DNA of 64,000 nucleotides from Bacteroidota bacterium (GCA_963169745.1 CAUJCU010000002.1:496001-560000), one strand, 5' to 3'; positions 9,113 to 35,054 are shown, counted from the first letter of the stretch. Notes: generated by a model from the letters alone, not told the origin. Made by a program: numbers and translations.

Positions 9113-10330
9113 TTATTTATTAACGTACTGTTGGGCCCTTCTTAACAAATCAATTCTATCGCTCTGTATTACGTATGATTCCCCTCCAAATTTAATTTGT
9201 GTACCTTCTGCCATACCCTTTAAAAACTGTAAATCTTCGTGCATGGTATGTATCGATCCCTTTGTTTTATAGGCTAACCATAGGTAACTGTAATTGAAAA
9301 GCCCAAATTGTGTACCGCATAACACAACATGAACAGGAACTTTTATTTGATCTAATAATTTATAGTCACGCATACCCGCATAATTATCAGCAATCAAGAT
9401 AATTTCTTTTGAATTAGGGAACTCATTCTGAGCATTTAAAATGGCCTCTACAACATTTTCAGCTATGTCGCCACTACAGCCCTTGGAAGTTGACTGTCTT
9501 AATAATCCATAAAAACTATCATAATTATTTGTTTCCATACAATATATCCCTCCGGTAGCACCATTTATTTTCTTTTTATCAGCAATACCATCACCGTCAT
9601 TAAAAAAAACAATATTCGTTTTTCCATTTAAACTAATCTTATATAAAAACCACAATGCCATTTGGCAAACATAGGGGCTCATGCTACAAGTTACATCAGC
9701 TACAACCGTGGCGTTATTATTCCATTTTTTATGCCTTCTAAAAACAGCAATTACCGTTGAATCAGCTAACATTTTAAACTTTTTTTCTATTTTAATATTT
9801 CTGCCTTTTTGAGTTTCACCCGGTTTTAATTCTTCATATTTCTGCGGCAAGGAATCATAATTACTCAATTCACTTAAATAATATGCCCCATTCGTTTCTG
9901 GAATATAGTAAATCACAATACCATGAAAATAAGTTTTTGCCTCTGCCTCTGACCTGCACTTCATTTGCCGGACTAATCTCCACTGAATTGACTCATTATT
10001 AATCAAGGTGGAGTTTACCTCTAATGCTTTATTAATTCTTCTTCGATTTAATTCTTTTAGGTCAATGCCATTAGGAAAATCGGTGTACACTAAATCCACT
10101 TGAATAATTTGAGCTTTTCTCAGGTTTGACTTATCCATTACAGAAATAATAGCCTCTTGTCCATAAGTCATATTGATTACAACAGCCTCCAAAAAACCAG
10201 CCCGATAAGTATAGACCGAGCTTTTTGTTTCTTTTAAATTTAAAATATCTTCAATCGTTCTGGTATCTGATTTAGAGTATGCTGTAATGGCATTACAAAA
10301 TAGCATTAGGGTTAGAATAAGTGCTTTCAT
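9113..10330 (-). CDS. Secreted protein with von Willebrand factor A-like domain
   Basis: A 405-residue exported protein (signal peptide 1-19, LILTLMLFCNAITAYS). The N-terminal 190 residues match no family I recognise. From about residue 205 the order of elements suggests a VWA fold: strand VVADVTCSMSPY with metal-site residues D212-x-T214-x-S216 (a Thr variant of the MIDAS DxSxS), strand NIVFFNDGDG (239-248), a GCSGDIAENVVEAILNA helix with possible MIDAS threonine/serine position near S286, and strand EIILIADNY with D315. The last 60 residues (KTKGSIHTMHEDLQFLKGMAEG) are specific to this protein. A VWA domain would bind metal and protein partners outside the cytoplasm. It points the same way as the giant adhesin upstream, but 440 bases and a terminator lie between. 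Confidence 0.65.
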   Translation of the reverse strand: MKALILTLMLFCNAITAYSKSDTRTIEDILNLKETKSSVYTYRAGFLEAVVINMTYGQEAIISVMDKSNLRKAQIIQVDLVYTDFPNGIDLKELNRRRINKALEVNSTLINNESIQWRLVRQMKCRSEAEAKTYFHGIVIYYIPETNGAYYLSELSNYDSLPQKYEELKPGETQKGRNIKIEKKFKMLADSTVIAVFRRHKKWNNNATVVADVTCSMSPYVCQMALWFLYKISLNGKTNIVFFNDGDGIADKKKINGATGGIYCMETNNYDSFYGLLRQSTSKGCSGDIAENVVEAILNAQNEFPNSKEIILIADNYAGMRDYKLLDQIKVPVHVVLCGTQFGLFNYSYLWLAYKTKGSIHTMHEDLQFLKGMAEGTQIKFGGESYVIQSDRIDLLRRAQQYVNK

Positions 10331-10717
10331 AATAACGATTATTTTTAATGAACAATACGAGTTGAATTATGAATGTAACGGCTAAAAAAAGAAACAAGTT
10401 TTCAATTTAACCTATTTTATAATTAGTAGCTTTTTATGTAATGAGGTGTCTTCGGTGCTTAAAATACGTTGAAAGAGATGATGCTGCAGCACTTTAGTTT
10501 AGCTAAAATATAGGCCTGAGTATGCCCGGTCTCTTTGGGTAATGTTTGTGTTTTGTGGATTTAAACACCAGTATGAAAAGAATAAAATTTAGCCGAACAA
10601 ACTAATTTAATTGATTTAATAGGGCGTCTTTCTTAAAAAGCTTCAAAGGAGTACTAATATTAGGCATTATTAATAAAGGTATTATTCCCAATAGACAGCT
10701 TCATTGATGATAGCTGT
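10331..10717. other. Intergenic region upstream of the VWA-like gene
   Basis: About 390 bases with no convincing open frame on either strand and no clear TAnnTTTG box facing the VWA-like gene. It must contain that gene's promoter, because the adhesin transcript is stopped by the terminator at its right edge, but I cannot point to it. Confidence 0.5.
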
Positions 10718-10770: not shown

Positions 10771-13700
10771 TTACTGAGTTTTTACAAATCTAAATGTTCT
10801 TCGTTTGTTTTTTTGATTCGTAGCTACCATAATATATGAACCTTGAGCAAAGGATGAACCTATGTTTAGCTTATTATTAGAAATAATTTCTTGACTGAAA
10901 ACAATGTTGCCGATAACATCATATACTTTAACGTCAAAAACTTCATTGATATTTGTGTTAATCAATACGGTAGTTTCTTCATTAAAAGGGTTAGGCATTA
11001 CCATCAGATCGAAGCTTGTTGCGTCATTTGCTATGTCATCCAATAATGCTGCTGCTTCATTATTTGTATCATCTTCTCTATTCATACCAATAATACCAAT
11101 TAAACAAGGTGTTCCGAAAGCACCCCAGGTACTTGCAATACGTGCTCTTACTCTTACATTATATTGTGCCGGGAATGATAAAGCAGGGCTAACCGTATTC
11201 AAGAACAATACATTATTTGTTTGTAGTTTTGTTGCTACTACGGCTCCACTTATGGCATCTGAGAACTCAAACTCATATTGAATTGCTCCTGAAACAGGAT
11301 TTGCAATTAATCTATTATCGGCATTAATTTTATAGTTTTGTTTATTGCAATCTTGTATTCTGAGTGTAGTTTGAGGCACACCGTAAATACTTGGATCTAA
11401 CATTATTCCAATGGAGCAATCGGAGCTGTATGGCCCCACATTATTACCAATTTTTGCACGCACCTTAATATTCCAATTGGTTCCCCAATTTATTATAGGG
11501 CTTACACTATGAAGTAATATATAACTGGTAGTGGTTATTTTTGTAGCATACACCCCAAAGCTATTGCTAAATTGCCATTCGTATTGGGTAGCTCCGCTAA
11601 CCGGTAAACATGATATTGACGAAGTTTTAACATAGCTCATATTACCGCAAACGCCATTACTCATTTGTGTGGCAGGAACACAGTTCGTACCGGCTGATAT
11701 GGTAATTGATGTGCTTGCACTACATCCATTCAACTCAGTAACTGTTAAAGTATATGTACCTGCAGATGTTATATTCGTGTTGAAGCTTGTCCCCCCATTG
11801 CTCCATACATTTCCTGTAATATAATTACTGTTTAATACAATGGTTTGACCCGGACAGATACTCGTTGAACTTGCAGTAATTACTGGTGTTGTATTGCAAG
11901 GTGCACTGATTACCGTTATGTATTCAACATCAGAACAGGTGCTCCCATTACTTGAAATAGTTACCCTGTAATTACCCGGTGCTAAGCCTGTAAATTGTGT
12001 ACTGAGGACCTCCGTATAAGTTGTTAAATTGGAGTAATTGCCTGAAGATATTTCAGCATCAAGTGCTATTGAAACTATTCCGCAATAAGTACCTGCACCG
12101 TTTACGTTGATTGTTCCGTTGTTACCATTTGACGGTGTTGATGTTATGGCGGCAATATTTAATGTACAGGTTTGTGGCAGTACAGTAAAATCATAAGTAC
12201 CCGTGCAAAAGCCATAAAGTCCCGAACCTCCATCAATTGTGTAATTACCCGGAGCTAAATTATTGAATTCAAAAGTTGGCGAAGTGTTCATTGGCCACGA
12301 ATGAAAATCAATAAAGTCACCATTTAACCATAAAAAAACAGAACCATTGCTGCACATATACCCTGAAGGTGTAAAGCTTACCTGAGCAAGAGTACAACTA
12401 TCGGAGCCCGAAACGTAACTTACCTGAACATTGTTAATGCTGATATTACATGGATTAGGAGTAATGCTAAATGATTCTGTAATAAAATCCGATTCACCAA
12501 AATTAATAATATAATTTCCAGGGGCTAATGCGCCAACTGTAATACTTTGGTTGCCACCACCAGTATATGTAGAAGAGTAAACAAGATCATAAGATTCGTT
12601 GTAAACCTCAACTCCGGCAGCGTAACAAATTTGTCCATTTACAACAAAATTTACTGTTCCTTCAGTGCATGATGAAACACCAATTGAACTAGTGGTTATA
12701 TTACTAATTGTGTAAAGGGGGGCTACAGGGTCAATTGTAAAACTCAACGTATCGCCACAAGTAACATTTAATAAATTATTTACTGCTACTATTGAGTAGT
12801 TACCCGGTGCTATATTATCAAAATATAAACCTGTGCCATTACCTGTAGTCCAGTTTATCGTATTTAAAATGGTTCCGTTTTGAATTAGTGCCACAGCGCC
12901 TGTACCGCAGGTAGTTCCTGTAACATCAAAATCTATTTTGCCTTGAACACAATTAGACACCCCTGTTGATGAAACAGATGAATTAGCAATATTAATATTA
13001 CATGCTGCGGGAACTACTTCGAATGGATAATCAATTTCGCAGCCAGCACTGCTTAAGTGTAAGTTATAATTTCCTGTTGAAGCGATGTATATTTCTGTAC
13101 TCACACTTCCTGTTAAGTAATATGTTTCGAGAGTTGAACCATTCTGATTTAAGGTAAGAACACTTCCGGGGCAATTGCCTAAATTTAAATCATAGCCAAA
13201 TGCATAATAACAACCATTGGTTTGTGAAGGGTTAATGGTTACATTGTTAAATTGCAAATTGCTGCAAGGAGCCGGATCGATACTAAAATTATATGTTTCG
13301 CTGCATGTTCCCGAGGTGTTGAACACTTTTAAAGTATAGTTTCCTACAGGAATGTTTTCAATAGTGTTGGCTACAATGCCATCAATACTTGGAATATTGC
13401 TTTGATACACCACTGTTGAAGTTGTATTATTTGTTAACCTTACAAATGAAACAGAACAATCGGTGGAAATTACATAATACGAAAGTTTACCTATGGTGCA
13501 AGAACCAGCGCCTACAAGGCTTACTGTTTCATTATACAAATTGATATCGCAAATAGGGCTAATCGTGAATGGGTAATTAAAACTGCAACCGCTCGCATTA
13601 GTAACTTGTACACTGTAACTTCCAACATTCAAGTAGTTGAAATTATAATCACCTGCTGCATTAATTTGTACTATTGAAAGAACTAATCCGGTATTGTTTA

Positions 13701-16700
13701 AAAGTTGCATTGATGTATTATTACAAATATCACCGGAAAGGTTAAATGCAATTGCTCCATTATCATCTTCATCACAAGCTTGTGTGAATACTGCATTACT
13801 AATTGCAATATTGCAGAGCGAGGAAGCAATGCTAAATGTTGCAATAGCTCCACAATAGTGACCCGCATCAACATAATTTGTAATGGCCTCTATACTGTAA
13901 TTACCTGCAGGTAGTGGGCCAAAGTTAATTGTACTTCCTGGTGTCCATGATTGTTGACCAATATTATTATTTAAACCATCATACAGAACTACCTGATTTG
14001 TAGTACCGCATTGAGTTCCTGTTACATTAAATGAAACAGTTCCGGCACTGCATGAAGCAGGTGTTGTGCTTACATTATTAATTGCAATATCGCAGGGCGA
14101 TGAAGCAATGCTAAATGTTGCAATAGCTCCACAATAGTGACCGGCATCAACATAATTTGTAATGGCCTCTATACTGTAATTACCAGCAGGTAGCGAACCA
14201 AAGTTAATTGGAGCACCAGAAGTCCATGATTGTTGACCAATATTATTATTTAAACCATCATACAAAACTACCTGATTTATGGTACCGCATTGTGCCCCGG
14301 TAACATTAAATGAAACTGTTCCGGCAGTGCATGAAACAGGTGTTGTGCTTACATTATTAATTGGAATATCGCAGGGCAAATTGGTTAATGTATAATTTAC
14401 TGTTGATAAGCAAGTGCCTGAGCCAGTATATGACAATGTAATTACATAATTGCCTGCACTCAAATTCTGAATAACTTCAGCAAGTGGTGCAGCAGATGAA
14501 TAGTCGGCAATCAGAAGATTTGAACCGTCTTTAGTTATATTTAAAATATAATTATTCCCATAGGCATTGCCACTCATGTTTATTGTTAATGAACCATTTG
14601 AACAGCCATTATTGGGGTCAATATGATTGGTAACACTTACATTTAAGGTGCACGTAGAGGCCCCTGCAGTAATGGTAAAATCTTGAGTAACTTCACAAAT
14701 ACCGTTGCTAAAAACAATTTGATAATCATCGGGCGGAAGACTTGAAAAACTTACCGGAGTTGATGAACCCGATGGTGTAACATTATTTGAAAAATACGCA
14801 AATCCATCTTTCATAATTGTTACTGTATAGCCGGAGCATTCGGCACCAGACACATTGAAATTGGCACTCCCCAAATAACTAAGATCGGCAGCAGCATTGG
14901 TTATAACCAAATCCGTAATTGCCAAATTACAACTACTTGGAGGGTTAACAGTAAAATTGCTTTCAACAATGCAAGTGCCCGGTGTTAAGTGATCTGCATA
15001 AGCTACTACAGTATAATTTCCGGGTTGAAGATATGAAAACCCTATTAGCCCGGTACCATAAGATTCATAAATTGAGAATGATTGTATCCAAGTACCATCC
15101 ATGTATAGATCCACTAAATATTGTCCGTTGCAGGTTATTCCATTTATTTGGGCAGTGTAATCTGTCCCGCTGCATCCAGTGTTAATAACTTCATTAATTA
15201 TTGATAGATTACATCCGTTATTGGGTATAGTAAAACTACCTGTTATCGGGCATCTTCGCTCTGATAAAGCTGCTGTATAGGATCCTATGGTATAAAAAGT
15301 GTAGGTGTAATTCCCAGCAGGAAGGTTTACTTCAGCCGTTACATTATCTCCCGCAATATATGATGTATTTAAAACTCCAACTGTATCACCGCCATTAAAA
15401 ATATAGCCAATGTATGTTTGAAAAATACAGCGTTGAGGATCAACAATGTTTAAGGTAAATTTTCCATTACTACAATTGTTTGAAGCGGCTTCTGTTGTGG
15501 TACTTAAAGTATAAGCATCGCAATAATTTAAATACACGTTAAATCCTGTTGTGGCTGCACACAGATCTACAACAGCAAGTGGTCCGCTTCTTACTTCATA
15601 AGAGCCATCAACGCCTGTATTAAAAACTACAGTTCGCCCACCAGGTGCCCCAAAAAAAGTTGGATGTGGTTGCCACGGTCCGCCATCAACACGGGATTCA
15701 AATTGGTAAAGAGTTGAAGGATCTGTTGCATCGGCTACAACTGCTGTCACTACTACATAACCACAAGGAGCCAAACTGGTATCTAATGAAACCGAGATAT
15801 TACCAACAGGACAAGGGTCAATCAACAAAAATCCGTACTCGTTAAAACAAGTATTACCCACGTTTTCACCTGAAAATGCTTGTATTTGATACAAGCCGGC
15901 ACCCAGATTTTGAAATTCAAAAACCGGACTAGACACAGGTACTACCTGACTTGTAATAAAATTACCGTTATCAAATAATTTTACTAAATAGTTTCCGGAA
16001 CAAGTTGTTCCGGTAACAGTACCCGTAACTGCACCATCATGGTTTCCGGTAATTGAAACTTCAGTTAATACTGGATTAAGAATGAGCACATCGCAAGTTG
16101 TTTCTGAAATACTTATACTTTGCTGTACTGTACAGGGGGTTGTAGCGTCATCACTTAATGTTATTGTATAAACACCAGCAGGTACATCATATATTTGTAC
16201 AGCCGAGTAGGTTTGGGTTTGTGTGGCGTAAAAGCTGCTAAAATAACTGCCATCTTTTTCAATTAACACATAATAATTACCATTAGCCGTATTGCCACTT
16301 GCATTAAAGTAGATAGAACCATTGTTGCAACCGCTCGAAATATTGTTGGCAGTTAATGAACTAATTGCAACATAGCAAGGCAAATTGTTTAAAGTAAAGA
16401 ATTGACTAGTAACACAAGTTGAACCATAAGCTGAGAATAATTTTAGCTCATAAGTACCCGCTTCTAAACCCCAAATTGTTTCTGGGCCTGAACTACCAGT
16501 TACTGGAATATAATCTGTGAGTTGAAGCACTGATTCTTTATATAGCTCATAGTAATAACTTCCTCCACAATTTGAACCTTGTGCATTAAAAAAAACTTTT
16601 CCGTTGTTCCCAACATTTATTGTTGGTTCGATAAAACTAAAGTCTGCAATTGTTGTATTGCATGTTGGCTCTGTAAGGGCAAATGTTTGTGTTGCAATAC

Positions 16701-18030
16701 AACCTACAGAACCGTTAGTAATTTCGATGGAATAACTGCCCGCAGGCATTGATGTTAGATTTAAAGTTCCGGCTCCTGCTGTTTCACTGGGATAATAGTC
16801 TCCAAAAAAGTTACCATCTTTTGAAAGAGAAACAGTATACGAGTTGTTGCAGGTAATACCTGTGAATACCGCATCTAATGCTCCATCATTACAGCCAGCC
16901 CCACTTAGATTTGTTGGTAGTAGATTAGAAATGGAAATATCACAGGCAGGATCTTCTATGGCAATTACTTCTTCATGTTGGCATTCATAACTGTTAGGGT
17001 CATCATTATTTAATACACTTACGTAATAAGTGCCAGGGGCTAAATTATCAATTTCAAATACTCCTGCTCCGTTAGTTTCATAAGCATAATAGATGGCTGG
17101 AGTACCCCCGTTAAAGTTTATTTTTACAAGATAAACACCAGCTCTAGATTCTCCGGTAATATCCAAGGTAATTTTTCCATTATTACAACCATTTGCACTA
17201 GGCTGAATTGTTGATGATGTGAAATTCATATCACAGGGAGGTTCTCCTACAGTAATATTACCTGAGTAAAAACAAGCACTTGGATAAGACATATTGCCAC
17301 CATTAGTAATTTTAAGGGTGTAATTACCTGGGTGTAAGTTGGTTTGTGTTGCAGTTAAAATACCGGGGGCAGGAGCCGGTTGTCCTAAAGCGTCCGTAAT
17401 AGTACCTGAGCTACTAATTAGGCTATAAAACCAATTGTCTAAGCATGGATACCCGGCAGTAAAACTAAAGCTTATCGCTCCATCAAAAGAACCATTGACT
17501 GAAGAATTTGTAACATTTATATCAGGCAAAATGGCTGGGCAGGGCGGTTGATTTATTGTTACATCAGTGGTTCCCGTACAGCCCGATTCGGTAACTACAA
17601 AAATCCTGTATGATCCAGCCATAAATGATGCTAAATGTATTGAACCAGGAGCTTGAAGCCCCCCATATGAAGCAATTATACTTAAATTAAACAAGGGTCT
17701 TATTTCCCATGAATACCACTCAGCAGTTTGTGGTGTAAAATAAATTTCACCATCCATGCAACCGGGGTTATTTACATGTACAACGCTTGCAACGATGCTA
17801 ACCGTACATGCATCATCTTGTAATTCATCCTTTGCATTAGCAAACTCAAAATTAAATATTTGCATTATCAACAAAATTGGAATTACCATCTTTCGATTAA
17901 AAAAACAGACTGTTCTTTTAATACTTTTTTCGGGTAAATTAATTTGGGGCAACCTTTTGTGGTCATCTCTGAGGCTAATGCTATTTGAATTATAATGTTC
18001 AAATAGTTTTAATAGATTGGCTACTTTCAT
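10771..18030 (-). CDS. Giant T9SS-secreted repeat adhesin (2419 residues)
   Basis: A very large surface protein built almost entirely from about 21 tandem beta-sandwich repeats of 85-110 residues. Each unit opens with Cys-x-[ILV] and a strand such as ISINNV, has a Gly-rich turn near 'C.NG.I.F...G..C', and closes with a turn of the type LAPGNYTI followed by a Cys and a strand ending in Pro-Cys, which starts the next unit. Four or so cysteines per unit suggest disulfide-stabilised rods. After the repeats come an Ig-like domain (CPGQTIVLNS), two related domains of about 90 residues (VSGATQYEWQFS, VSGAIQYEFEFS) and a T9SS type A sorting domain (VMPNPFNEETTVLI...). The first ATG is supported by a -7 box 27 bases upstream; a second Met (residue 48) just before the hydrophobic signal segment MVIPILLIMQIFNF is the alternative start at 17889. 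Probable role: adhesion or matrix. No enzymatic domain is seen. Confidence 0.85.
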   Translation of the reverse strand: MKVANLLKLFEHYNSNSISLRDDHKRLPQINLPEKSIKRTVCFFNRKMVIPILLIMQIFNFEFANAKDELQDDACTVSIVASVVHVNNPGCMDGEIYFTPQTAEWYSWEIRPLFNLSIIASYGGLQAPGSIHLASFMAGSYRIFVVTESGCTGTTDVTINQPPCPAILPDINVTNSSVNGSFDGAISFSFTAGYPCLDNWFYSLISSSGTITDALGQPAPAPGILTATQTNLHPGNYTLKITNGGNMSYPSACFYSGNITVGEPPCDMNFTSSTIQPSANGCNNGKITLDITGESRAGVYLVKINFNGGTPAIYYAYETNGAGVFEIDNLAPGTYYVSVLNNDDPNSYECQHEEVIAIEDPACDISISNLLPTNLSGAGCNDGALDAVFTGITCNNSYTVSLSKDGNFFGDYYPSETAGAGTLNLTSMPAGSYSIEITNGSVGCIATQTFALTEPTCNTTIADFSFIEPTINVGNNGKVFFNAQGSNCGGSYYYELYKESVLQLTDYIPVTGSSGPETIWGLEAGTYELKLFSAYGSTCVTSQFFTLNNLPCYVAISSLTANNISSGCNNGSIYFNASGNTANGNYYVLIEKDGSYFSSFYATQTQTYSAVQIYDVPAGVYTITLSDDATTPCTVQQSISISETTCDVLILNPVLTEVSITGNHDGAVTGTVTGTTCSGNYLVKLFDNGNFITSQVVPVSSPVFEFQNLGAGLYQIQAFSGENVGNTCFNEYGFLLIDPCPVGNISVSLDTSLAPCGYVVVTAVVADATDPSTLYQFESRVDGGPWQPHPTFFGAPGGRTVVFNTGVDGSYEVRSGPLAVVDLCAATTGFNVYLNYCDAYTLSTTTEAASNNCSNGKFTLNIVDPQRCIFQTYIGYIFNGGDTVGVLNTSYIAGDNVTAEVNLPAGNYTYTFYTIGSYTAALSERRCPITGSFTIPNNGCNLSIINEVINTGCSGTDYTAQINGITCNGQYLVDLYMDGTWIQSFSIYESYGTGLIGFSYLQPGNYTVVAYADHLTPGTCIVESNFTVNPPSSCNLAITDLVITNAAADLSYLGSANFNVSGAECSGYTVTIMKDGFAYFSNNVTPSGSSTPVSFSSLPPDDYQIVFSNGICEVTQDFTITAGASTCTLNVSVTNHIDPNNGCSNGSLTINMSGNAYGNNYILNITKDGSNLLIADYSSAAPLAEVIQNLSAGNYVITLSYTGSGTCLSTVNYTLTNLPCDIPINNVSTTPVSCTAGTVSFNVTGAQCGTINQVVLYDGLNNNIGQQSWTSGAPINFGSLPAGNYSIEAITNYVDAGHYCGAIATFSIASSPCDIAINNVSTTPASCSAGTVSFNVTGTQCGTTNQVVLYDGLNNNIGQQSWTPGSTINFGPLPAGNYSIEAITNYVDAGHYCGAIATFSIASSLCNIAISNAVFTQACDEDDNGAIAFNLSGDICNNTSMQLLNNTGLVLSIVQINAAGDYNFNYLNVGSYSVQVTNASGCSFNYPFTISPICDINLYNETVSLVGAGSCTIGKLSYYVISTDCSVSFVRLTNNTTSTVVYQSNIPSIDGIVANTIENIPVGNYTLKVFNTSGTCSETYNFSIDPAPCSNLQFNNVTINPSQTNGCYYAFGYDLNLGNCPGSVLTLNQNGSTLETYYLTGSVSTEIYIASTGNYNLHLSSAGCEIDYPFEVVPAACNINIANSSVSSTGVSNCVQGKIDFDVTGTTCGTGAVALIQNGTILNTINWTTGNGTGLYFDNIAPGNYSIVAVNNLLNVTCGDTLSFTIDPVAPLYTISNITTSSIGVSSCTEGTVNFVVNGQICYAAGVEVYNESYDLVYSSTYTGGGNQSITVGALAPGNYIINFGESDFITESFSITPNPCNISINNVQVSYVSGSDSCTLAQVSFTPSGYMCSNGSVFLWLNGDFIDFHSWPMNTSPTFEFNNLAPGNYTIDGGSGLYGFCTGTYDFTVLPQTCTLNIAAITSTPSNGNNGTINVNGAGTYCGIVSIALDAEISSGNYSNLTTYTEVLSTQFTGLAPGNYRVTISSNGSTCSDVEYITVISAPCNTTPVITASSTSICPGQTIVLNSNYITGNVWSNGGTSFNTNITSAGTYTLTVTELNGCSASTSITISAGTNCVPATQMSNGVCGNMSYVKTSSISCLPVSGATQYEWQFSNSFGVYATKITTTSYILLHSVSPIINWGTNWNIKVRAKIGNNVGPYSSDCSIGIMLDPSIYGVPQTTLRIQDCNKQNYKINADNRLIANPVSGAIQYEFEFSDAISGAVVATKLQTNNVLFLNTVSPALSFPAQYNVRVRARIASTWGAFGTPCLIGIIGMNREDDTNNEAAALLDDIANDATSFDLMVMPNPFNEETTVLINTNINEVFDVKVYDVIGNIVFSQEIISNNKLNIGSSFAQGSYIMVATNQKNKRRTFRFVKTQ
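13802..14359 (-). repeat. Two near-identical tandem 279-bp units inside the adhesin gene
   Basis: Unit 1 (13802-14080) and unit 2 (14081-14359) are in register with a period of exactly 279 bases, or 93 codons. Both encode the block with VLYDGLNNNIGQQSW and SIEAITNYVDAGHY, differing at only a handful of residues, while the neighbouring adhesin repeats have diverged far more. This points to a recent in-frame duplication of one repeat module. Confidence 0.92.
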
Positions 18031-25987: not shown

Positions 25988-27088
25988 TTAATTCTTACCT
26001 TTAGTTTCCGGATTTTCATTACCAAAACGGCTTTGCACTGTTATGGACTCGTCATGTATAATTTGATAAATAGCTTTAATAAAATTTTCGCTAAGTCCTG
26101 TTGTTTTTCCGTTTTGAATTTGCGACTGAAGCGTTTTTTTCCATCGGCTAAGTTGAAGTATGGCTATATTATGCTCAAATTTATACTGCCCAATTTCTTT
26201 AGAAAGTGCCATCCGTTGAGCTAAAAGGTTAACAAGTTCATCATCAATAATATCAATTTTATTACGTAAAATATTTATCTCTTCACATTTACGTTCCGAT
26301 TCTTCTTCTGATTGAGATACTCGGATATTAGAAATGAGTTGATGAAGCTCTGCAGGAGTAATTTGTTGCTGGGCATCGCTAAGTGCTTTAGCAGGTAGGT
26401 GGTGGGTTTCAATCATAAGCCCATCCATAGCCAAATCTATAGCCAATTGCGTAATATAAGGAATCAATTTTTTGTTTCCTGTAATATGGCTTGGGTCACA
26501 AAATAAAGGCAAGTGGGGTAATTGTGTTTTTAATTGGATAGGAATATCCCAAGCCGGATTATTTCTGAAGTCTCCATTTGAGTATTTGTGGAAGCCTCTA
26601 TGAATAGCCGCAACTAAATTTACTCCGGCTTGTTGAATACGTTCTATGGCTCCTATCCATAAGTTAATATCGGGGTGTACCGGATTTTTAATGAGTATAG
26701 GAATGTGACTCACTCCTTTCATAGCATGAGCTAATTCCTGCACTGAAAAAGGATTTACAACCGTGCGAGCTCCAATCCATAGGGCATCGGCCTGATGCTT
26801 TAAGGCTATTTCGATGTGCTGTGGAGTAGCCACCTCAACCATAAACCGCAATCCCGTTTGTTCGCGCATGGCTTTAAGCCAAGCAAAAGCTGAAACACCG
26901 GCTCCTTCAAAGCTACCCGGTCGTGTACGTGGTTTCCACACCCCGGCACGGTACAAAGCTTTAGGATAATGCTGGGCTATACCCTGGGCTGTTTCTAAAA
27001 CCTGCCTGGCACTTTCAGCACTGCATGGCCCTGCAATCAGAAAAGGCCTTCCGGACTGGTTTAACCAATTTAAAAAATCATTTTTCAC
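25988..27088 (-). CDS. Bifunctional DAHP synthase / chorismate mutase (type II)
   Basis: A 366-residue fusion that condenses phosphoenolpyruvate with erythrose 4-phosphate at the entry of the shikimate pathway and also converts chorismate to prephenate. Residues 1-255 are a KdsA-like/AroF type I-beta DAHP synthase barrel (LIAGPCSAES, RAGVWKPRTRPGSFEG, NPVHPDINLW, FCDPSHITGNK). Residues about 270-345 are a helical AroQ chorismate mutase (LRNKIDIIDDELVNLLAQRMALSKEIGQYK). In this fusion order, known from other Bacteroidota, the mutase domain often acts in feedback control as well as catalysis. It stands alone and no other aromatic-pathway gene is in the window. Confidence 0.92.
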   Translation of the reverse strand: MKNDFLNWLNQSGRPFLIAGPCSAESARQVLETAQGIAQHYPKALYRAGVWKPRTRPGSFEGAGVSAFAWLKAMREQTGLRFMVEVATPQHIEIALKHQADALWIGARTVVNPFSVQELAHAMKGVSHIPILIKNPVHPDINLWIGAIERIQQAGVNLVAAIHRGFHKYSNGDFRNNPAWDIPIQLKTQLPHLPLFCDPSHITGNKKLIPYITQLAIDLAMDGLMIETHHLPAKALSDAQQQITPAELHQLISNIRVSQSEEESERKCEEINILRNKIDIIDDELVNLLAQRMALSKEIGQYKFEHNIAILQLSRWKKTLQSQIQNGKTTGLSENFIKAIYQIIHDESITVQSRFGNENPETKGKN

Positions 27089-27213
27089 TTAGCGTACATT
27101 AATCATACTGCTGCTCATCAAAAAAAGCAATGTTATAAGCAGCTTAAACAGAAACAATAGGTTTAATTTATATCTATTTAGTAATCGGTTTTGATTTTTT
27201 TGGAGTATTCTAT

Positions 27214-28188
27214 TTACCAGCCGAGTATCCAAGCGAACATTAAAGGAGCAACAATAGTAGCATCACTCTCAACAATATATTTTGGTGTATGAATATCTAA
27301 CTTACCCCAAGTAATTTTTTCATTTGGCACAGCCCCTGAATAAGACCCATAACTAGTAGTAGAATCACTTATTTGGCAAAAATAAGACCAAAAAGGGACA
27401 TCATGCCAGCCCAAATCTTGATACATCATAGGAACCACACAAATAGGAAAATCTCCGGCTATGCCTCCTCCAATTTGAAAAAAGCCAACACCCTTTCCAC
27501 CTGAATTATGACGATACCAGTCGCTAAGCCAAACCATATATTCAATACCGCTTTTCATGGTGTTTGCTTTGAGCTCATTTTTGATAACATAAGAAGCAAA
27601 AATATTACCCATGGTGCTGTCTTCCCATCCCGGTACCACAATAGGTAAATTACGCTGAGCTGCGGCTAACATCCAACTGTTTTTAGGGTCTATTTCATAA
27701 TATTGCTCCAGCTCACCACTCAACAACATTTTATACATATACTCATGCGGAAAATAGCGTTCTCCTTGGTCATTTGCCTCTTTCCAAACTTTGTGGATGT
27801 GTTTTTGCAAACGTCTGAATGCTTCCTCTTCAGGGATACAGGTATCGGTAACTCTATTGTAATGATTCTCCAGCAACTCCCATTCCTCTTGTGGTGATAG
27901 GTCACGGTAATTAGGCACTCTTTTGTAGTGGCTGTGGGCCACTAAATTCATAATATCTTCTTCCAAGTTAGCTCCGGTGCAACTGATTATATCCACCTTT
28001 CCTTGACGAATCATTTCTGCTAATGATTTTCCTAACTCTGCCGTACTCATGGCTCCAGCTAAAGTAATCATCATTTTACCTCCGTCAGTAATGTGTGTTT
28101 CATAACCTTTAACGGCATCCACAAGGGCTGCAGCATTAAAATGTAAAAAATTATTTTCGATAAATTGTGAAATAGGTCCTTTTTGCAT
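27214..28188 (-). CDS. Deoxyhypusine synthase-like protein
   Basis: A 324-residue NAD-dependent enzyme of the deoxyhypusine synthase family. It has the family elements ITLAGAMSTAELGKSLAEMI, SCTGANLEED, the GGGIAGDFPI loop and, near the C-terminus, the ITWGKLD motif with Lys296 at the position of the enzyme-intermediate lysine of eukaryotic DHS (SWGKIR). Bacteria lack eIF5A, so bacterial homologues are thought to work on polyamines, for example as homospermidine-synthase-like enzymes; the substrate here is not established. It is a single gene preceded by a near-consensus -7 box. Confidence 0.85.
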   Translation of the reverse strand: MQKGPISQFIENNFLHFNAAALVDAVKGYETHITDGGKMMITLAGAMSTAELGKSLAEMIRQGKVDIISCTGANLEEDIMNLVAHSHYKRVPNYRDLSPQEEWELLENHYNRVTDTCIPEEEAFRRLQKHIHKVWKEANDQGERYFPHEYMYKMLLSGELEQYYEIDPKNSWMLAAAQRNLPIVVPGWEDSTMGNIFASYVIKNELKANTMKSGIEYMVWLSDWYRHNSGGKGVGFFQIGGGIAGDFPICVVPMMYQDLGWHDVPFWSYFCQISDSTTSYGSYSGAVPNEKITWGKLDIHTPKYIVESDATIVAPLMFAWILGW

Positions 28189-28347: not shown

Positions 28348-28379
28348 TTGATTAGAGGCTAAAAAAAAGATTATATTTG
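28348..28379 (+). promoter_or_regulatory. Promoter of the lamin-tail/TonB-receptor/endonuclease locus
   Basis: TTG (28348-28350), 21 bases and a perfect TATATTTG (28372-28379) fit the Bacteroidota consensus. The predicted leader is about 17 bases. Confidence 0.7.
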
Positions 28380-28401: not shown

Positions 28402-29457
28402 ATGAAAAAAACTTTACTTGCTATTACTATCATTACTTTAAGCCATTTTACATTGCAGGCGCAAAATCCTATTGCTCCATGCAGCGACTTGTTTATATCA
28501 GAGTATGTAGAAGGCACTAATAATAATAAAGCACTGGAGCTATACAACCCTACGCTAAGTCCTATTTCGCTAGCAGAATATCGTATCATTAGATGGGATA
28601 ATGGAAATGTTTATGTTGACCCTTTTCCAGCGGAGAATGTACTTAACTTACCGGCAAATATTACCCTACAACCTAATACTACGTATGTTATTGCACTCAA
28701 CCTTACCGACCCTACAGGTACCGGACAGAGTGCCCCTATTGATGTGGCTTTGCAAGCTGTAGCCGACACCTTGTTATGCCCGGGTTGTGCCACAGGAACA
28801 GGAGAATCACGAGTAATGTGTTTTAACGGTGATGATGCCCTTTCGTTGCAAAAATTAAAGAGTGGCACCTGGGTTGATATAGATATTTTTGCCTGTATTG
28901 GTGAACGTCCATCAAATAGCGCAGGCGGATATAGCCCAACAGCAGGATGGACTATACTTCCACCCTACTCTGCAATGCCCACAAATTATGACGCATCAAC
29001 ACAAGGGCCCTATTTTTTTCAATACTGGACTCAAGACAAAACCCTTAAACGTAAATTCTCAGTAAAAGCTGGTGTTAATACAAACCCTTCTCCTCAAACA
29101 TTCAATGCCTCAGTTCAATGGGACTCTTTACCGCAAAATACGTATACCGGACTCGGTTCACATTCTTGTGAATGTTATCCTCAAAACATCAGCAATAATT
29201 ACATAAACAGCCGTACCCAAGTTTATCCTAACCCTTCTTCAGGGATTATTACTGTAAATACCCGTCAATTCAGTGGCTTTGTGGTACTCACAAACATAGC
29301 TGCTCAAACAGTAAAATCAATTGAAATAAGTTCACTTACGGATTTCTTCTCTATGGATATTTCAGATTTACCAAAAGGGGCTTACACATTAACCTTATTA
29401 TCTAATCAAAAAAGTACAGCAACACCGCTTGTTCACAAGAAAGTAATTCTACAATAA
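28402..29457 (+). CDS. Lamin-tail domain T9SS-secreted protein
   Basis: A 351-residue exported protein: signal peptide (residues 1-20, LLAITIITLSHFTLQAQ), a lamin-tail domain (about 25-170) recognised by LFISEYVEGTNNNKALELYNPT, SLAEYRIIRWDNG, LQPNTTYVIA and MCFNGDDALSLQK, and a T9SS type A sorting domain at the end (YPNPSSGIITVN ... KGAYTLTLL). Bacterial lamin-tail domains often accompany or are fused to secreted nucleases and phosphatases, and may bind nucleic acid or anchor such enzymes; this is family-level knowledge. First gene of the group that ends with endonuclease I. Confidence 0.85.
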   Translation: MKKTLLAITIITLSHFTLQAQNPIAPCSDLFISEYVEGTNNNKALELYNPTLSPISLAEYRIIRWDNGNVYVDPFPAENVLNLPANITLQPNTTYVIALNLTDPTGTGQSAPIDVALQAVADTLLCPGCATGTGESRVMCFNGDDALSLQKLKSGTWVDIDIFACIGERPSNSAGGYSPTAGWTILPPYSAMPTNYDASTQGPYFFQYWTQDKTLKRKFSVKAGVNTNPSPQTFNASVQWDSLPQNTYTGLGSHSCECYPQNISNNYINSRTQVYPNPSSGIITVNTRQFSGFVVLTNIAAQTVKSIEISSLTDFFSMDISDLPKGAYTLTLLSNQKSTATPLVHKKVILQ

Positions 29458-29477
29458 CAGATCAAAATTTGATTTTT

Positions 29478-29506
29478 AAGGAGCTTGTTTATTTAATAAG
29501 CTCCTT
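29478..29506 (+). other. Intercistronic hairpin before the TonB receptor gene
   Basis: A perfect 9-base stem AAGGAGCTT/AAGCTCCTT with an 11-base AT-rich loop lies between the lamin-tail gene and the receptor gene. There is no T-run after it, so it does not look like a simple terminator; it may be an mRNA-processing or partial-attenuation structure that sets the expression ratio of the two genes. Confidence 0.45.
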
Positions 29507-29531
29507 CTATTAAAAAATATTCTGCCTTTTT

Positions 29532-32276
29532 ATGATCAGGTTTCTATTCTTTATAACAGCTTTTTTAACCCATTCAATATTGCTTGCTCAAAACAGCGGT
29601 ATTACCGGTCAAATAAGCGATGTTACTACCGGTGAGTTGTTAATTGGGGCTGTAGTAGCTGCTGAAAACGGGAAAGTGGCTGCCACCGATTTAGATGGGC
29701 ATTATAAATTAGCTTTAGAGCCTGGCGAACATGTAATAAAGATAAGTTATGTTGGCTATCCTGCTCTGGAACGCAAAGTTGTAGTTCCCGAAAATAAGTT
29801 TATTCCCTTGATTATTGCTATGGAAACAAAGGTTTTACGTGAAGTAGAGGTTGTTTCGGATATTGCCATTGCCCGTAAAACTCCTGTAGCCTTCTCTAAT
29901 ATCCCTACTCAAAAAATTCAGGAAGAATTGGGTTCGCAAGATTTGCCATTACTTTTAAATTCAACCCCAGGGGTGTATGCCACGCAACAAGGTGGTGGTG
30001 ATGGAGATGCACGGGTTTCTATTAGAGGCTTTAACCAACAAAATGTTTTGGTGCTTATTGATGGAGTTCCTATGAATGATATGGTAAATGGTCGCGTTTA
30101 TTGGACTAACTGGTTTGGACTCGACAATTTGACTAAAGGAGTGCAAGTACAACGTGGTTTAGGATCGTCCAAATTAGCTATTCCTGCCTTGGGCGGCACT
30201 ATTAATATTCTTACTTCGGGCATTGAAGCTACTAAACAAGTAGTAATTAAAGAAGAGATTGGTAACAATTTTAATTTCCGATCTACGGTTTCGGCTAGTT
30301 CAGGTCGTTTGAAAAAAGGATGGGGTGCTACCGGGGCACTTTCGTTTAAGCGTAATGATGGCTATGTCGAAAACTTAGGTTCCCGAATGTTTTTTTACTT
30401 TTTAAAAGTAGATAAATTAATGGGTAGTCATGCCCTCAGTTTCTCTGCTATGGGAGCTCCACAAACCAGTGCCCAAAGAGATTTCAGAACACAACAAAGG
30501 TTATCGGTTTACAGTCGTAGTGAAGCTAATAACTTAGGCGTTGACACGAGTGCTACTTCAGACAAAATAGAGCGTGGTATCAGATACAACCCAAGCTGGG
30601 GGTATTTAAGAAGAACACGTGATAATCAGTATGGAGCCCCTCAAGAAATAGTAAACACCAGTGTTAATCAGTTTCATAAACCCATTATGAGTTTAAAAGA
30701 TTTTTGGACGGTTAACGACAAAATAGCCATTTCTAATATTCTTTATGCTTCTTTTGGGCGCGGTGGCGGTACACAACCCAATAACAATATCCCTAACTCC
30801 GTTAAAAACTTAAATGGCGAGCAGGATATACAAGGAGTTTATGATGCTAACGCCTTTAGCCCTATTAATGCCGGTATTATTCCTGAACATCCGGATTTAA
30901 GACGATCAACTAATTTTTTAAGAAAAAACTATAACGAACATGATTGGTACGGTTTGCTTTCTACTCTTAATTATGCTCCTACAAACTCCTTAGACATTTC
31001 TGGAGGGTTTGATTTAAGAACTTATCAGGGTCGTGTATTTAGCCGTATTCATGATTTATGGGGAGGTGATTTTATTCAGTCAAATATAAACCCTAATGAA
31101 GAGTCAAATGCCCTAAAAAAAGAAGGTGATATTATTACACAAAACATTCATCGTCATGTGCGTTGGGCCGGTGTTTTTGGAACAGCCGAATATAAAGCCG
31201 AAAAGTTTACTGCGTTTTTAAATATAAGTGCCAGCATGAGTGCTTATAAACAAACAAACTATTTTTTAAAGAAGCAACTGGATTTGGGTGACACCACCTT
31301 GAGTGTTGGCTATAACGACACCATTCAATATCAGGGCAATACTTATACCCGAGATGCAGCCAATCTTAAGTACAACACAACCGACTGGAAAAAACTTTAC
31401 GGATATGTAAGTAAAGGCGGATTTAACTATAATTTAACGGAACAAATGAATGCCTTTGTTAATATTGGGTACTTTAGTCGTGCCCCTTTAATTGCAAGTG
31501 TTTTCAGAACCGATAACAAAGAATTTAAAAATATTAAAAACGAAGAAATAAAATCCTTAGAACTGGGGTACTCATTCAAATCAAAAATGTTTTCGGCCAA
31601 CCTCAATGGTTATTATACCATTTGGGACAACCGACCTACTCGTGCCAACTTTACCGTAAATGGAGAAGCTATAACAGCAAATGCCGAAGGTATGCGAGCC
31701 ATTCATAAAGGCGTAGAACTTGATTTTGCCTTTAAGCCAATTAAGATAGTTACGCTTGAAGGAATGGTTTCTTTGGGCGATTGGCGTTGGGCCAAAGCTG
31801 CTACAGCCACTATCTTAGCAGAAGATGGCTCAGTCTTAGCAGAAACCAAATTTGACCCTTCGGGAGTAAGAGTAGGAGATGCCGCTCAACATGTATATTC
31901 AGCCTCTATAAGGATAGAACCCATAAAATATTTATATTTTAAGCCACAATATACCTACTTTACACATAATTTTTCCAATTTCTCTCCCGAAGATTTAGTT
32001 ATTACTGATATCTCAAAAAACTGGGGACCTAATGTTGGAAGACAGAGCTGGAGAATGCCTGATTACGGGAGTTTAGACATAAACTTGGGTTGGGGATTTT
32101 ATCACAACAAAGTAAAATACGATATTAGAGGTACTATTCTTAATACTTTAGATACTTTTTATATTACCGATGCCCAAAACAACAACTCAATTGGCGGTGG
32201 CTATAATGCCGCTTCGGCAACTGTAAACGTAGGAATGGGACGTAGGTGGGTTACTTCAGTGTCTGTTACTTTTTAA
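29532..32276 (+). CDS. TonB-dependent outer-membrane receptor with carboxypeptidase-like N-terminal domain
   Basis: A 914-residue outer-membrane transporter. The signal peptide (1-19) is followed by a CarboxypepD_reg-like domain (about 22-105, GITGQISDVTTGELLIGAVV), a plug domain (about 115-235, PLLLNSTPGVYATQQGGGDGDARVSIRGF ... VLIDGVPMNDM is the conserved core) and a 22-strand barrel ending in the outer-membrane signature residue Phe (SVSVTF). Tyr/aromatic-rich strand ends are as expected. The substrate is not readable from sequence. Its position between a lamin-tail protein and a secreted endonuclease suggests uptake of DNA breakdown products. The next gene begins directly at its stop (TAAATG). 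Confidence 0.92.
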   Translation: MIRFLFFITAFLTHSILLAQNSGITGQISDVTTGELLIGAVVAAENGKVAATDLDGHYKLALEPGEHVIKISYVGYPALERKVVVPENKFIPLIIAMETKVLREVEVVSDIAIARKTPVAFSNIPTQKIQEELGSQDLPLLLNSTPGVYATQQGGGDGDARVSIRGFNQQNVLVLIDGVPMNDMVNGRVYWTNWFGLDNLTKGVQVQRGLGSSKLAIPALGGTINILTSGIEATKQVVIKEEIGNNFNFRSTVSASSGRLKKGWGATGALSFKRNDGYVENLGSRMFFYFLKVDKLMGSHALSFSAMGAPQTSAQRDFRTQQRLSVYSRSEANNLGVDTSATSDKIERGIRYNPSWGYLRRTRDNQYGAPQEIVNTSVNQFHKPIMSLKDFWTVNDKIAISNILYASFGRGGGTQPNNNIPNSVKNLNGEQDIQGVYDANAFSPINAGIIPEHPDLRRSTNFLRKNYNEHDWYGLLSTLNYAPTNSLDISGGFDLRTYQGRVFSRIHDLWGGDFIQSNINPNEESNALKKEGDIITQNIHRHVRWAGVFGTAEYKAEKFTAFLNISASMSAYKQTNYFLKKQLDLGDTTLSVGYNDTIQYQGNTYTRDAANLKYNTTDWKKLYGYVSKGGFNYNLTEQMNAFVNIGYFSRAPLIASVFRTDNKEFKNIKNEEIKSLELGYSFKSKMFSANLNGYYTIWDNRPTRANFTVNGEAITANAEGMRAIHKGVELDFAFKPIKIVTLEGMVSLGDWRWAKAATATILAEDGSVLAETKFDPSGVRVGDAAQHVYSASIRIEPIKYLYFKPQYTYFTHNFSNFSPEDLVITDISKNWGPNVGRQSWRMPDYGSLDINLGWGFYHNKVKYDIRGTILNTLDTFYITDAQNNNSIGGGYNAASATVNVGMGRRWVTSVSVTF

Positions 32277-32729
32277 ATGAGAAAGGCTATGAAAAAGTAT
32301 AAAATATTACTCTTCACTTTAGTTGTGGCAACGTCTTTAATTTGGAGCGCATGCAGTAAGGAACAAAAATGGAGTGATAAGCTAAAAGGGAAATGGAATG
32401 TTGAGGCTATTAAATTAAATAATACCACAGATGTTGACCTATCTGATGCAAAACACACCATTGAATTTTTAGGCGGGAAAAGAGCCTACACGGCTTCTTT
32501 TAAAGGAATTTATACCATTGACTATAACGATCAGTTACTAAAAGACATTTCAGATACTTTTCGTTATGATATTAAAGATAATCAAATAGCCATAACCAGT
32601 ACCCAAACGACTAAAGTAAGAACCCTAATTCGTTTCCGTTATATTTTGGAAACTCTAAACGGTTCTGAATTATTCTTTAATAAAACACCTTTAGATACAA
32701 CAACAGCTTATTTAAAAGCTAACCGATAA
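32277..32729 (+). CDS. Lipocalin-like lipoprotein
   Basis: A 150-residue lipoprotein: signal sequence KILLFTLVVATSLIWSAC with the lipobox cysteine at residue 26, then a small beta-barrel-like domain starting LKGKWNVEAIKLNN, the usual opening of Bacteroidota lipocalin-like/DUF proteins, and alternating strands to the end. Translation may begin at 32277 or at the second Met (32289), which gives a more ordinary signal peptide. It follows the TonB receptor without a gap, so it may be its surface-side or periplasmic accessory lipoprotein; the function is not known. Confidence 0.7.
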   Translation: MRKAMKKYKILLFTLVVATSLIWSACSKEQKWSDKLKGKWNVEAIKLNNTTDVDLSDAKHTIEFLGGKRAYTASFKGIYTIDYNDQLLKDISDTFRYDIKDNQIAITSTQTTKVRTLIRFRYILETLNGSELFFNKTPLDTTTAYLKANR

Positions 32730-32747
32730 TAATTAACCTTATAAGCA

Positions 32748-35054
32748 ATGACAAAAAAAATTTCTTTATTAATTTTAGCCCTTAGTATAAGCTTGGCAAA
32801 ATTGTTTGCTCAGGCAAGTATTCCAACTTCATTCGATTTTGAAGATTTTAGTGCTATTCCGGCTGGTTGGACAATAACAGATATTAGTACTTCTGGAGGG
32901 CTTACCTATACCGGACCTAACTCATGCGGTACGCAGGCGTTACGTTTAGATGCAAATAACGAAGCTTTAACCATCTGGTGCGGGCTTCAACCAGGGCCGG
33001 TTACATTCAGCATCAGAGCTACAGGTCCGTGGAATAATGGCAAATTTAATATCCAGGAATCAATTGATGGAACGAGCTATTCCAATTTATTGACTTTTAA
33101 CTCTGCAAACCCTATGCCTAATACCAGTTGCACTACACTTACTGCTATTCCAAGCAATGCAGCTATTCGTTATATCCGTTTTTTTTATGAGCAAAAAGTA
33201 TCCGGAGCTAATACTGCTATTGATGATGTAAGTATTGCTGCTCCATTAATTACAACTGCCACACTGGGCATTCAAGAAAACGGTAATGCCATTTTCAACA
33301 ATACTTTTGCCAGTCCGGTTACAGCCGCTGTTGGAAGCAGTACACCTATTGGGATGACGATGTATAATATTGGAACAATAGATACTTTACAAATTGATAC
33401 AATCTTTTTTAGTGGTGCTGATGCAGCCGATTTTACGCTCGTAAATCCATCTGTATTCCCATTCAGTATTTTACCCTCAGGCAACTCCGCATTAAATTTG
33501 AATTTTACACCAACAGCACCCGGAACTCGATTAGCTGATTTACATATTTTAAGTAACGATACGCTGCATCCGGAATATAAAGTTAAACTTTATGCTGCTG
33601 GTGATGGATTGGCTACAGAGCCTTCGGCACAAGCAAGCTCTCTTACCTTTCCGGTAAACAAATCATATCGCATTATCGGAAGTTTTAACACCGCCAATCC
33701 GGCTCCTGATAATCTTGGAGGGTATTTAATATTGCGACATGATAACACACCCGGAACAGACATTCCTATTGACGGAACAGTTTATCAAAGAGGTCAAACT
33801 ATAGGTACATCTAAAGTGGTTTATGCCGGTTCTATAACCGGAAATACCTTTAGCTTCCGTCCTACCTGGATATTAGCCGGAAAAACATATTATTTCAGTA
33901 TTTTTACTTATAACGGAAATGGAACCGTTACCAATTACAGAACATCTGATCCCCTAACAGGAAATGTTACTACACCGTCAACTATGGTTGCTGCTAACGA
34001 GTATAACACCATAAATACAACTGCACCAACCTTTGTATCTGACCTAAGTGCATTAATAAATCCACACACATCCAAATTTTACTCAACCTACGCCCCTACT
34101 ATGATTGCTTTATTCCAAACACGAGACACCTTTGCTTTGGTTGGGGCTAATACCTTTACCAAGGTAATTACTTGTGCCTATAGTCAGGAAGAAAAACTTT
34201 ATAACGAACCTTTTGACTGGGGTGCAACCGGTTACAGCAGAGAGCATACGTATGCGCATACTTGGATGCCAACTTACCCGGCTGATAATCCTGAAAAACC
34301 AGAATATAACGACCAGCACCACCTCTTCGCTACCCGTCAGGCTAATGTTAATGCTTTGCGTTGCAATTATCCATTTGGTGAAGTTGTAAATGTTATTGGT
34401 AATTATATGGAAGGAAAATTAGGAACAGATATTCATGGAAACCGTGTGTATGAACCTTCAGACAAACAAAAAGGGAGAACGGCACGGGCCTTAATGTATA
34501 TGGCTACTTGTTACAACGGAATAAGTGGTAACAGCTGGGCTTTTAAAGACAGCATCGGAAACTGCTCAGGCTTCAACATTAATTATGGACAAGATCAGAA
34601 TTTATTAAAAAAATGGCACTATGAATTCCCGCCTGATGCTTTTGATATGGCTCGTAATGACTTTTTAGACTCCTTGCAAAACAATAGAAATCCTTTTGTA
34701 GATCACCCTGAATACGCCTGCTATATCAATTTTGACAACATGACTTATATTGCTAACCCTACAATCCCATGCAATACATTAGGGATTCGTGAAAAGACCG
34801 GTTTTAGTCAGGTATATATAGCCCCTAATCCTGTTCAAGATAACTTTCAGGTTTATATAAACGTTGCTGAAAAACAACAAGTACAAGTAACCCTTACAGA
34901 CATGACCGGAAAAACAGTCATGGAAAGCAATTTACTCCTTGCTCCTGGAAACAATCAAAAAGAAATATCAATAAATCAGTTAAATAAAGGAGTTTATACT
35001 TTACGCATTAAAGGTGCGAATCAATTATTTACTCAAAAAATAATTAAACAATAA
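32748..35054 (+). CDS. T9SS-secreted endonuclease I family nuclease
   Basis: A 768-residue secreted nuclease. Signal peptide (1-21, LLILALSISLAKLFAQ), an N-terminal jelly-roll-like region (25-165), a choice-of-anchor D/ASPM-type domain (about 170-285, MYNIGTIDTLQID ... LADLHILSND), a linker Fn3-like domain (290-410) and an endonuclease I domain (about 415-670) with YSREHTYAHTWMP (His500) and NDQHHLFATRQANVNALRCN (His524, His525), close to the EndA/NucM/Dns pattern of metal-dependent nonspecific nucleases. A T9SS type A domain (APNPVQDNFQVYIN ... IIKQ) follows. It would degrade extracellular DNA or RNA at or beyond the cell surface. Last gene of the locus. Confidence 0.9.
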   Translation: MTKKISLLILALSISLAKLFAQASIPTSFDFEDFSAIPAGWTITDISTSGGLTYTGPNSCGTQALRLDANNEALTIWCGLQPGPVTFSIRATGPWNNGKFNIQESIDGTSYSNLLTFNSANPMPNTSCTTLTAIPSNAAIRYIRFFYEQKVSGANTAIDDVSIAAPLITTATLGIQENGNAIFNNTFASPVTAAVGSSTPIGMTMYNIGTIDTLQIDTIFFSGADAADFTLVNPSVFPFSILPSGNSALNLNFTPTAPGTRLADLHILSNDTLHPEYKVKLYAAGDGLATEPSAQASSLTFPVNKSYRIIGSFNTANPAPDNLGGYLILRHDNTPGTDIPIDGTVYQRGQTIGTSKVVYAGSITGNTFSFRPTWILAGKTYYFSIFTYNGNGTVTNYRTSDPLTGNVTTPSTMVAANEYNTINTTAPTFVSDLSALINPHTSKFYSTYAPTMIALFQTRDTFALVGANTFTKVITCAYSQEEKLYNEPFDWGATGYSREHTYAHTWMPTYPADNPEKPEYNDQHHLFATRQANVNALRCNYPFGEVVNVIGNYMEGKLGTDIHGNRVYEPSDKQKGRTARALMYMATCYNGISGNSWAFKDSIGNCSGFNINYGQDQNLLKKWHYEFPPDAFDMARNDFLDSLQNNRNPFVDHPEYACYINFDNMTYIANPTIPCNTLGIREKTGFSQVYIAPNPVQDNFQVYINVAEKQQVQVTLTDMTGKTVMESNLLLAPGNNQKEISINQLNKGVYTLRIKGANQLFTQKIIKQ

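Follow-up and report, generated by a model that had tools for sequence, protein, structure and literature searches.

A Bacteroidia gene cluster that joins a lamin-tail protein and a secreted nuclease to a relative of the Riemerella-type DNA-uptake barrel, with a probable role in the capture of extracellular DNA

The passage of DNA across the outer membrane of the Bacteroidota is largely unknown, and the sole genetic screen yielded a barrel and a partner unlike known competence proteins. In Riemerella anatipestifer, RA0C_RS04915, a barrel with a CarboxypepD_reg domain, and the adjacently encoded RA0C_RS04920, with DUF5689 and DUF5017 domains, are essential for natural transformation (PMC8459023), and TonB mutants of this species transform poorly (PMC8383284). 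In Flavobacterium johnsoniae, EndA1 and EndA2 (Fjoh_4721/4723) are listed as orphans outside the phosphate clusters (PMC8115612), and in polysaccharide utilisation loci (PULs) and the PusCD phosphate utilisation systems a secreted hydrolase, a surface protein and a TonB-dependent importer are clustered. Here, we describe a four-gene locus in a 64,000-nucleotide stretch of the genome of a Bacteroidota bacterium (GCA_963169745.1, CAUJCU010000002.1:496001-560000; the whole stretch is called the window), in which genes for a lamin-tail domain (LTD) protein, a TonB-dependent receptor, a lipocalin-fold lipoprotein and an Endonuclease I follow one another. The locus is an LTD- and nuclease-equipped relative of the Riemerella-type DNA-uptake barrel. 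It probably serves at the outer membrane to capture extracellular DNA and to bring it in, either intact or as fragments, because the gene set recurs across many families and the receptor is a cousin of the gate that Riemerella apparently uses for DNA uptake. The observations behind this reading are the conservation of the gene set, the exchange of the nuclease, the phylogeny of the receptor, the neighbours shared with the Riemerella-type barrel and the mutual exclusion of the two systems.

Like the R. anatipestifer pair, the locus places a receptor with a CarboxypepD_reg domain and a barrel next to a surface protein. The receptor (29532-32276, + strand; 914 aa) consists of a CarbopepD_reg_2 domain, a plug and a barrel (Pfam matches to PF13715, PF13620 and Plug), and among the matches listed its genome holds no second full-length homolog of it. 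The gene upstream (28402-29457, +) encodes a secreted LTD protein of 351 aa (Pfam LTD, 41.2 bits; Por_Secre_tail, 35.5 bits), and the last gene (32748-35054, +) encodes a secreted Endonuclease I of 768 aa (Endonuclease_1, 105.7 bits; Por_Secre_tail, 52.3 bits). In both of these proteins the Por_Secre_tail match, a cargo signal of type A for the type IX secretion system (T9SS), is C-terminal and over the cut-off. Whereas the R. anatipestifer partner is a lipoprotein with DUF5689 and DUF5017, that of the window is an LTD with a T9SS tail, and neither DUF5689 nor a barrel of the Riemerella kind (transformation-type barrel) was found among the matches listed for the genome.

The conservation of this arrangement was evaluated in two ways. 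A first search with the window receptor gave 63 loci, mostly in metagenome-assembled genomes of Flavobacteriales, and the LTD gene was directly 5′ of the receptor gene in 55 of the 61 loci that held a receptor, with a gene for Endonuclease I or another secreted protein usually on the 3′ side. To avoid bias, 158 genomes evenly drawn from the class were then surveyed with the receptor profile only, and 60 regions were fetched; 42 loci had a receptor scoring >900 bits, and receptors with lower scores were labelled PARA. It was found that an LTD gene adjoined the receptor gene, immediately upstream, in 41 of the 42 loci, and that a secreted nuclease was encoded ≤3 genes downstream in 35, a grouping that far exceeds chance. 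The seven loci without such a nuclease comprise two near a contig or region edge (L147 and L193) and five that lack it (L141, L145, L155, L169 and L174), and in a locus from the window's own genus (L165) two genes are inserted before the nuclease. We found no described LTD/TonB/nuclease locus in the open-access literature, and the assembly is apparently undescribed as such. The PARA receptors, whose regions in the 158-genome survey held neither an LTD nor these nuclease types, were considered as the same system and rejected, because the loci examined had no LTD and, for the most part, no nuclease.

The nuclease of the window carries SREHTYAHTWMP (the catalytic EH motif of Endonuclease_1) and is the sole Endonuclease_1 gene of its genome among the matches listed; the REH motif was matched in most of 31 relatives. 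In 21 loci of the first receptor search, the gene at the position of Endonuclease I encodes a T9SS protein in which Pfam recognises DUF5689 and two PLDc_2 stretches. The solved structures closest to the PLD part of this replacement were MitoPLD/Zucchini chains, the Nuc endonuclease was matched as well, and full-length examples have kept their HKD motifs. Two unrelated nuclease folds occupy the same gene position, which points to nucleic acid as the substrate.

This exchange also bears on the proposal that the receptor serves to import some unrelated small ligand, such as a metal or a cofactor, while the nuclease serves in biofilm or defence and the genes are neighbours for other reasons, for example joint regulation. 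The model of the receptor (pLDDT 82.3) is that of an ordinary TonB-dependent receptor, with BtuB as the nearest fold (Z 37.6) and Cir also near, as such a proposal would predict, although the structure comparison leaves the ligand undecided, because many receptors score alike. No nuclease recurs next to the related PARA receptors, and a cobalamin adenosyltransferase is among the PARA neighbours scanned; both observations likewise fit a small ligand. Adjacency that is kept over many families, the swapping of the nuclease type at the same position and the finding of the same types of nuclease next to the transformation-type barrel all speak against it, and we consider an unrelated small ligand distinctly improbable.

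The phylogeny of the receptor was inferred by a quick method, with SH-aLRT support only. All LTD-associated receptors formed one clade (support 98-99 across trees; 99 in the final tree), separate from SusC/RagA and from Escherichia coli BtuB, FepA and CirA, and with the PARA receptors as the next relatives. The receptor of the window resembles the E. coli proteins in its plug and barrel fold, but it is longer and has an N-terminal CarboxypepD_reg domain. The earlier note on this DNA had named clustering of the receptor with siderophore or glycan receptors as a result that would speak against its reading, and the receptor was found instead to stand apart from the siderophore/B12 and SusC/RagA receptors examined. 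The final tree included 13 transformation-type barrels from ten families, which grouped together with a support of 100; the window receptor was outside this group, in the LTD-associated clade, and the window clade, the PARA receptors and the transformation-type barrels together formed one clade, again with a support of 100 and apart from the SusC and E. coli receptors.

The transformation-type barrels were recognised from their gene context. In 13 genomes of another family, which appears to be Flavobacteriaceae, the best DUF5689 gene is in each case preceded by a gene for a CarboxypepD_reg barrel of ~930 aa; one DUF5689 partner has DUF5689 and DUF5017, exactly the domains reported in PMC8459023, and another has DUF5689 and an LTD. 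From their domain content and gene order, in genomes of one family, we take these barrel and DUF5689 pairs to be homologous to the Riemerella pair. Counted by hand from the region tables, 22 of 26 further loci with a transformation-type barrel have a DUF5689 partner next to it, and 19 have an EEP-family nuclease within the region. Beside the transformation-type barrel there is also, in L241, a T9SS Endonuclease I and, in L242, L261 and L263, a T9SS PLD nuclease; these are of the same kinds as in the loci of the window type. The two systems share receptors of one supported clade, an LTD in at least one DUF5689 partner and nuclease neighbours that include secreted Endonuclease I and PLD types, whereas they differ in that the secreted nuclease is core in the window type and occasional in the Riemerella type. 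Taken together, the neighbourhood survey, the nuclease swap and the link to the transformation-type barrel support a reading of the genes as a co-selected set, and they support the DNA theme of the earlier note.

Some further features of the barrel loci were seen. The DUF5689 partner in L220 (5872-7248) carries an LTD by Pfam, and that in L221 does so by a local profile match only. A second T9SS protein of ~450-470 aa, weakly DUF5689-like, is encoded after the DUF5689 partner in L242 (3315-4694) and in L256, L257, L260 and L266. In L237 and L238, a PARA receptor gene precedes the transformation-type barrel gene by a few genes, and an unannotated lipoprotein of 372-387 aa and a conserved protein of ~145 aa are encoded between the two; in L237 the genes run from the PARA receptor through the lipoprotein, Endonuclease_1, a small gene and EEP to the barrel.

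The two systems also exclude one another. In the 158 genomes, the window type was present in 44 and the transformation type in 35, and no genome had both, against 9.7 expected (hypergeometric P = 1.9e-6, phylogeny ignored). This result, like the kinship of the receptor families, the same nuclease neighbours and the LTD common to the partners, would fit a locus dedicated to natural transformation, in which the receptor would replace the RA0C_RS04915/04920 pair in these lineages and hand over double-stranded DNA to ComEC and an HhH protein of the periplasm. The genome of the window does hold ComEC, a 327-aa protein with two HhH motifs and a DUF1343 protein. Conversely, no competence gene adjoins the locus among the 25 commonest of 132 neighbour Pfam families, and the secreted nuclease of the same cluster would degrade donor DNA; we rate dedicated transformation as unlikely. 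A wider form of this idea, in which the cluster would be the transformation DNA receptor of Bacteroidia lineages without the Riemerella-type pair, and both would be members of a single large family of DNA importers, TonB-dependent and able to swap partner and nuclease modules, is similarly unlikely.

A purely nutritional use, as proposed in the earlier note, differs from the capture and import of DNA, whole or as fragments, only in the size and fate of the cargo: the nuclease would digest environmental DNA, and the receptor would import small products only (oligonucleotides, nucleotides or phosphate) under phosphorus or carbon limitation. The secreted nuclease with its conserved catalytic-type REH motif and the small-ligand receptors as nearest folds agree with this use. 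EndA1 and EndA2 of F. johnsoniae likewise bring LTD and Endonuclease I together in secreted proteins, although they fuse the domains (fn3, LTD and Endonuclease_1) in one protein, and they are induced by phosphate depletion; phosphate-regulated TonB transporters (Pi-induced) also exist (PMC8115612). In one relative (L168), a T9SS calcineurin-like phosphoesterase (9153-10385) is encoded between the receptor and the PLD nuclease. The phosphate-induced F. johnsoniae proteins and this phosphoesterase favour nutrition, whereas the kinship and exclusion with the transformation-type barrel favour the uptake of longer DNA, that is, a cargo longer than nucleotides, and the locus itself offered no phosphate gene or PHO motif in support. 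The closest relative for which a genetic phenotype is known likewise points to DNA itself as what is taken up. We regard a purely nutritional use as possible, but somewhat doubtful.

The earlier note had also seen a PUL-like build in the locus. The likeness holds as a loose analogy with PULs and PusCD systems, in the clustering of a secreted hydrolase, a surface protein and a TonB-dependent importer. However, the locus has no SusD-like lipoprotein, its lipoprotein being of lipocalin fold, and the receptor, besides lying outside the SusC/RagA clade, matched the SusC/RagA model TIGR04056 with 79.5 bits over the N-terminus, far under the cut-off of 368. A polysaccharide utilisation locus by descent is ruled out by the SusC phylogeny and the lack of a SusD family among the four proteins, and the interpretation of the earlier note as a whole is partly supported.

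The mechanism that we propose for DNA capture and import is as follows. The T9SS would deliver both the nuclease and the LTD protein to the cell surface, where the latter, the presumed DNA-binding or organising partner of the receptor, would hold or present nucleic acid beside the receptor. The nuclease may nick, trim or shorten the DNA, the receptor would draw on TonB energy to carry DNA or oligonucleotides into the periplasm, and the lipoprotein of lipocalin fold may assist as an optional accessory. The module would in this way work like the CarboxypepD barrel and DUF5689 pair (RA0C_RS04915/04920), of which the receptor is a distant cousin. We infer the binding of DNA by the LTD and the specificity of the nuclease, as well as the direction, size and fate (food, phosphorus or transformation) of the imported molecule.

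Several points weigh against this reading. Transforming DNA would tend not to survive a secreted nuclease, and the receptor model is most like the small-ligand receptors BtuB and Cir. The net charge and pI of the receptor are no different from those of other receptors, and the mature LTD and nuclease proteins are acidic. The exclusion test takes no account of phylogeny, and only three families (f3, f18 and f24) include genomes of both types, which belong to different genera; the homologs of the Riemerella pair were assigned from domains and gene order in one family. The presence of ComEC, the HhH protein and the DUF1343 protein is permissive only and says little, because these families are common. 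Still, the cluster links the Riemerella barrel to a wider group of receptors that, in many Bacteroidia families, are accompanied by surface LTD proteins and by secreted nucleases of interchangeable type, and it offers a few genes with which environmental DNA turnover, phosphorus recycling or gene exchange could be tested.

The four open reading frames (ORFs) span 28402-35054 on the + strand with gaps of 74, 0 and 18 bases, so that the layout given in the earlier note is borne out by the ORF calls, Pfam and the lipocalin-fold model. The transcription unit starts at the LTD gene, because the upstream neighbour is divergent. As to the good promoter of the earlier note, a Bacteroidetes-type -7 box, TATATTTG (TAnnTTTG; 28372-28379, +), lies 30 bases 5′ of the LTD ATG, and boxes of this type were found upstream of 26 of the 42 LTD genes (4.8 expected from shuffles), whereas a sigma-70 scan was at chance (21 found, 24.2 expected). 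No TAnnTTTG box was found within the 74-nt gap between the LTD and receptor genes of the window.

That gap folds at -20.4 kcal/mol (z -4.6), with a strong hairpin at 29478-29506 (+). Hairpins that were significant relative to shuffles occurred in 16 of 20 LTD-receptor gaps of 35-130 nt, the window included; the sequences are unrelated among relatives, and some are followed by a T run. The conserved hairpin suggests that transcription is attenuated after the LTD gene, and it is possibly a partial terminator or attenuator by which more LTD protein than receptor would be made. A full terminator would contradict the reading as a single operon. The co-transcription of all four genes is therefore not certain, because the hairpin separates the LTD gene from the receptor gene.

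The lipoprotein (32277-32729, +; 150 aa) had no Pfam match. Its N-terminus is lipobox-like (..LIWSAC), and its model (pLDDT 81.5) has a lipocalin fold, with the Bacteroides lipocalin-like structure 4qrl as the best match (VIA Z 11.7, 99 residues, rmsd 2.5). The gene is present in few of the surveyed loci and in only a subset of relatives, in keeping with an accessory role.

The source genome is nearly complete (3.0 Mb, 24 contigs) and belongs to poorly known Bacteroidia, in an order with 7 genomes in the collection searched. At 25988-28188 (-), divergently upstream of the locus, there is a deoxyhypusine synthase gene with a DAHP synthase/chorismate mutase gene beside it, and several relatives have genes of the same families close to the locus (conserved synteny). 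Elsewhere in the window, a 2419-aa ORF (10771-18030, -) with a T9SS tail-like end and weak carboxypeptidase-regulatory/PEGA matches probably encodes a large surface protein, and a T9SS reprolysin-like metallopeptidase is encoded at 663-2894 (+).

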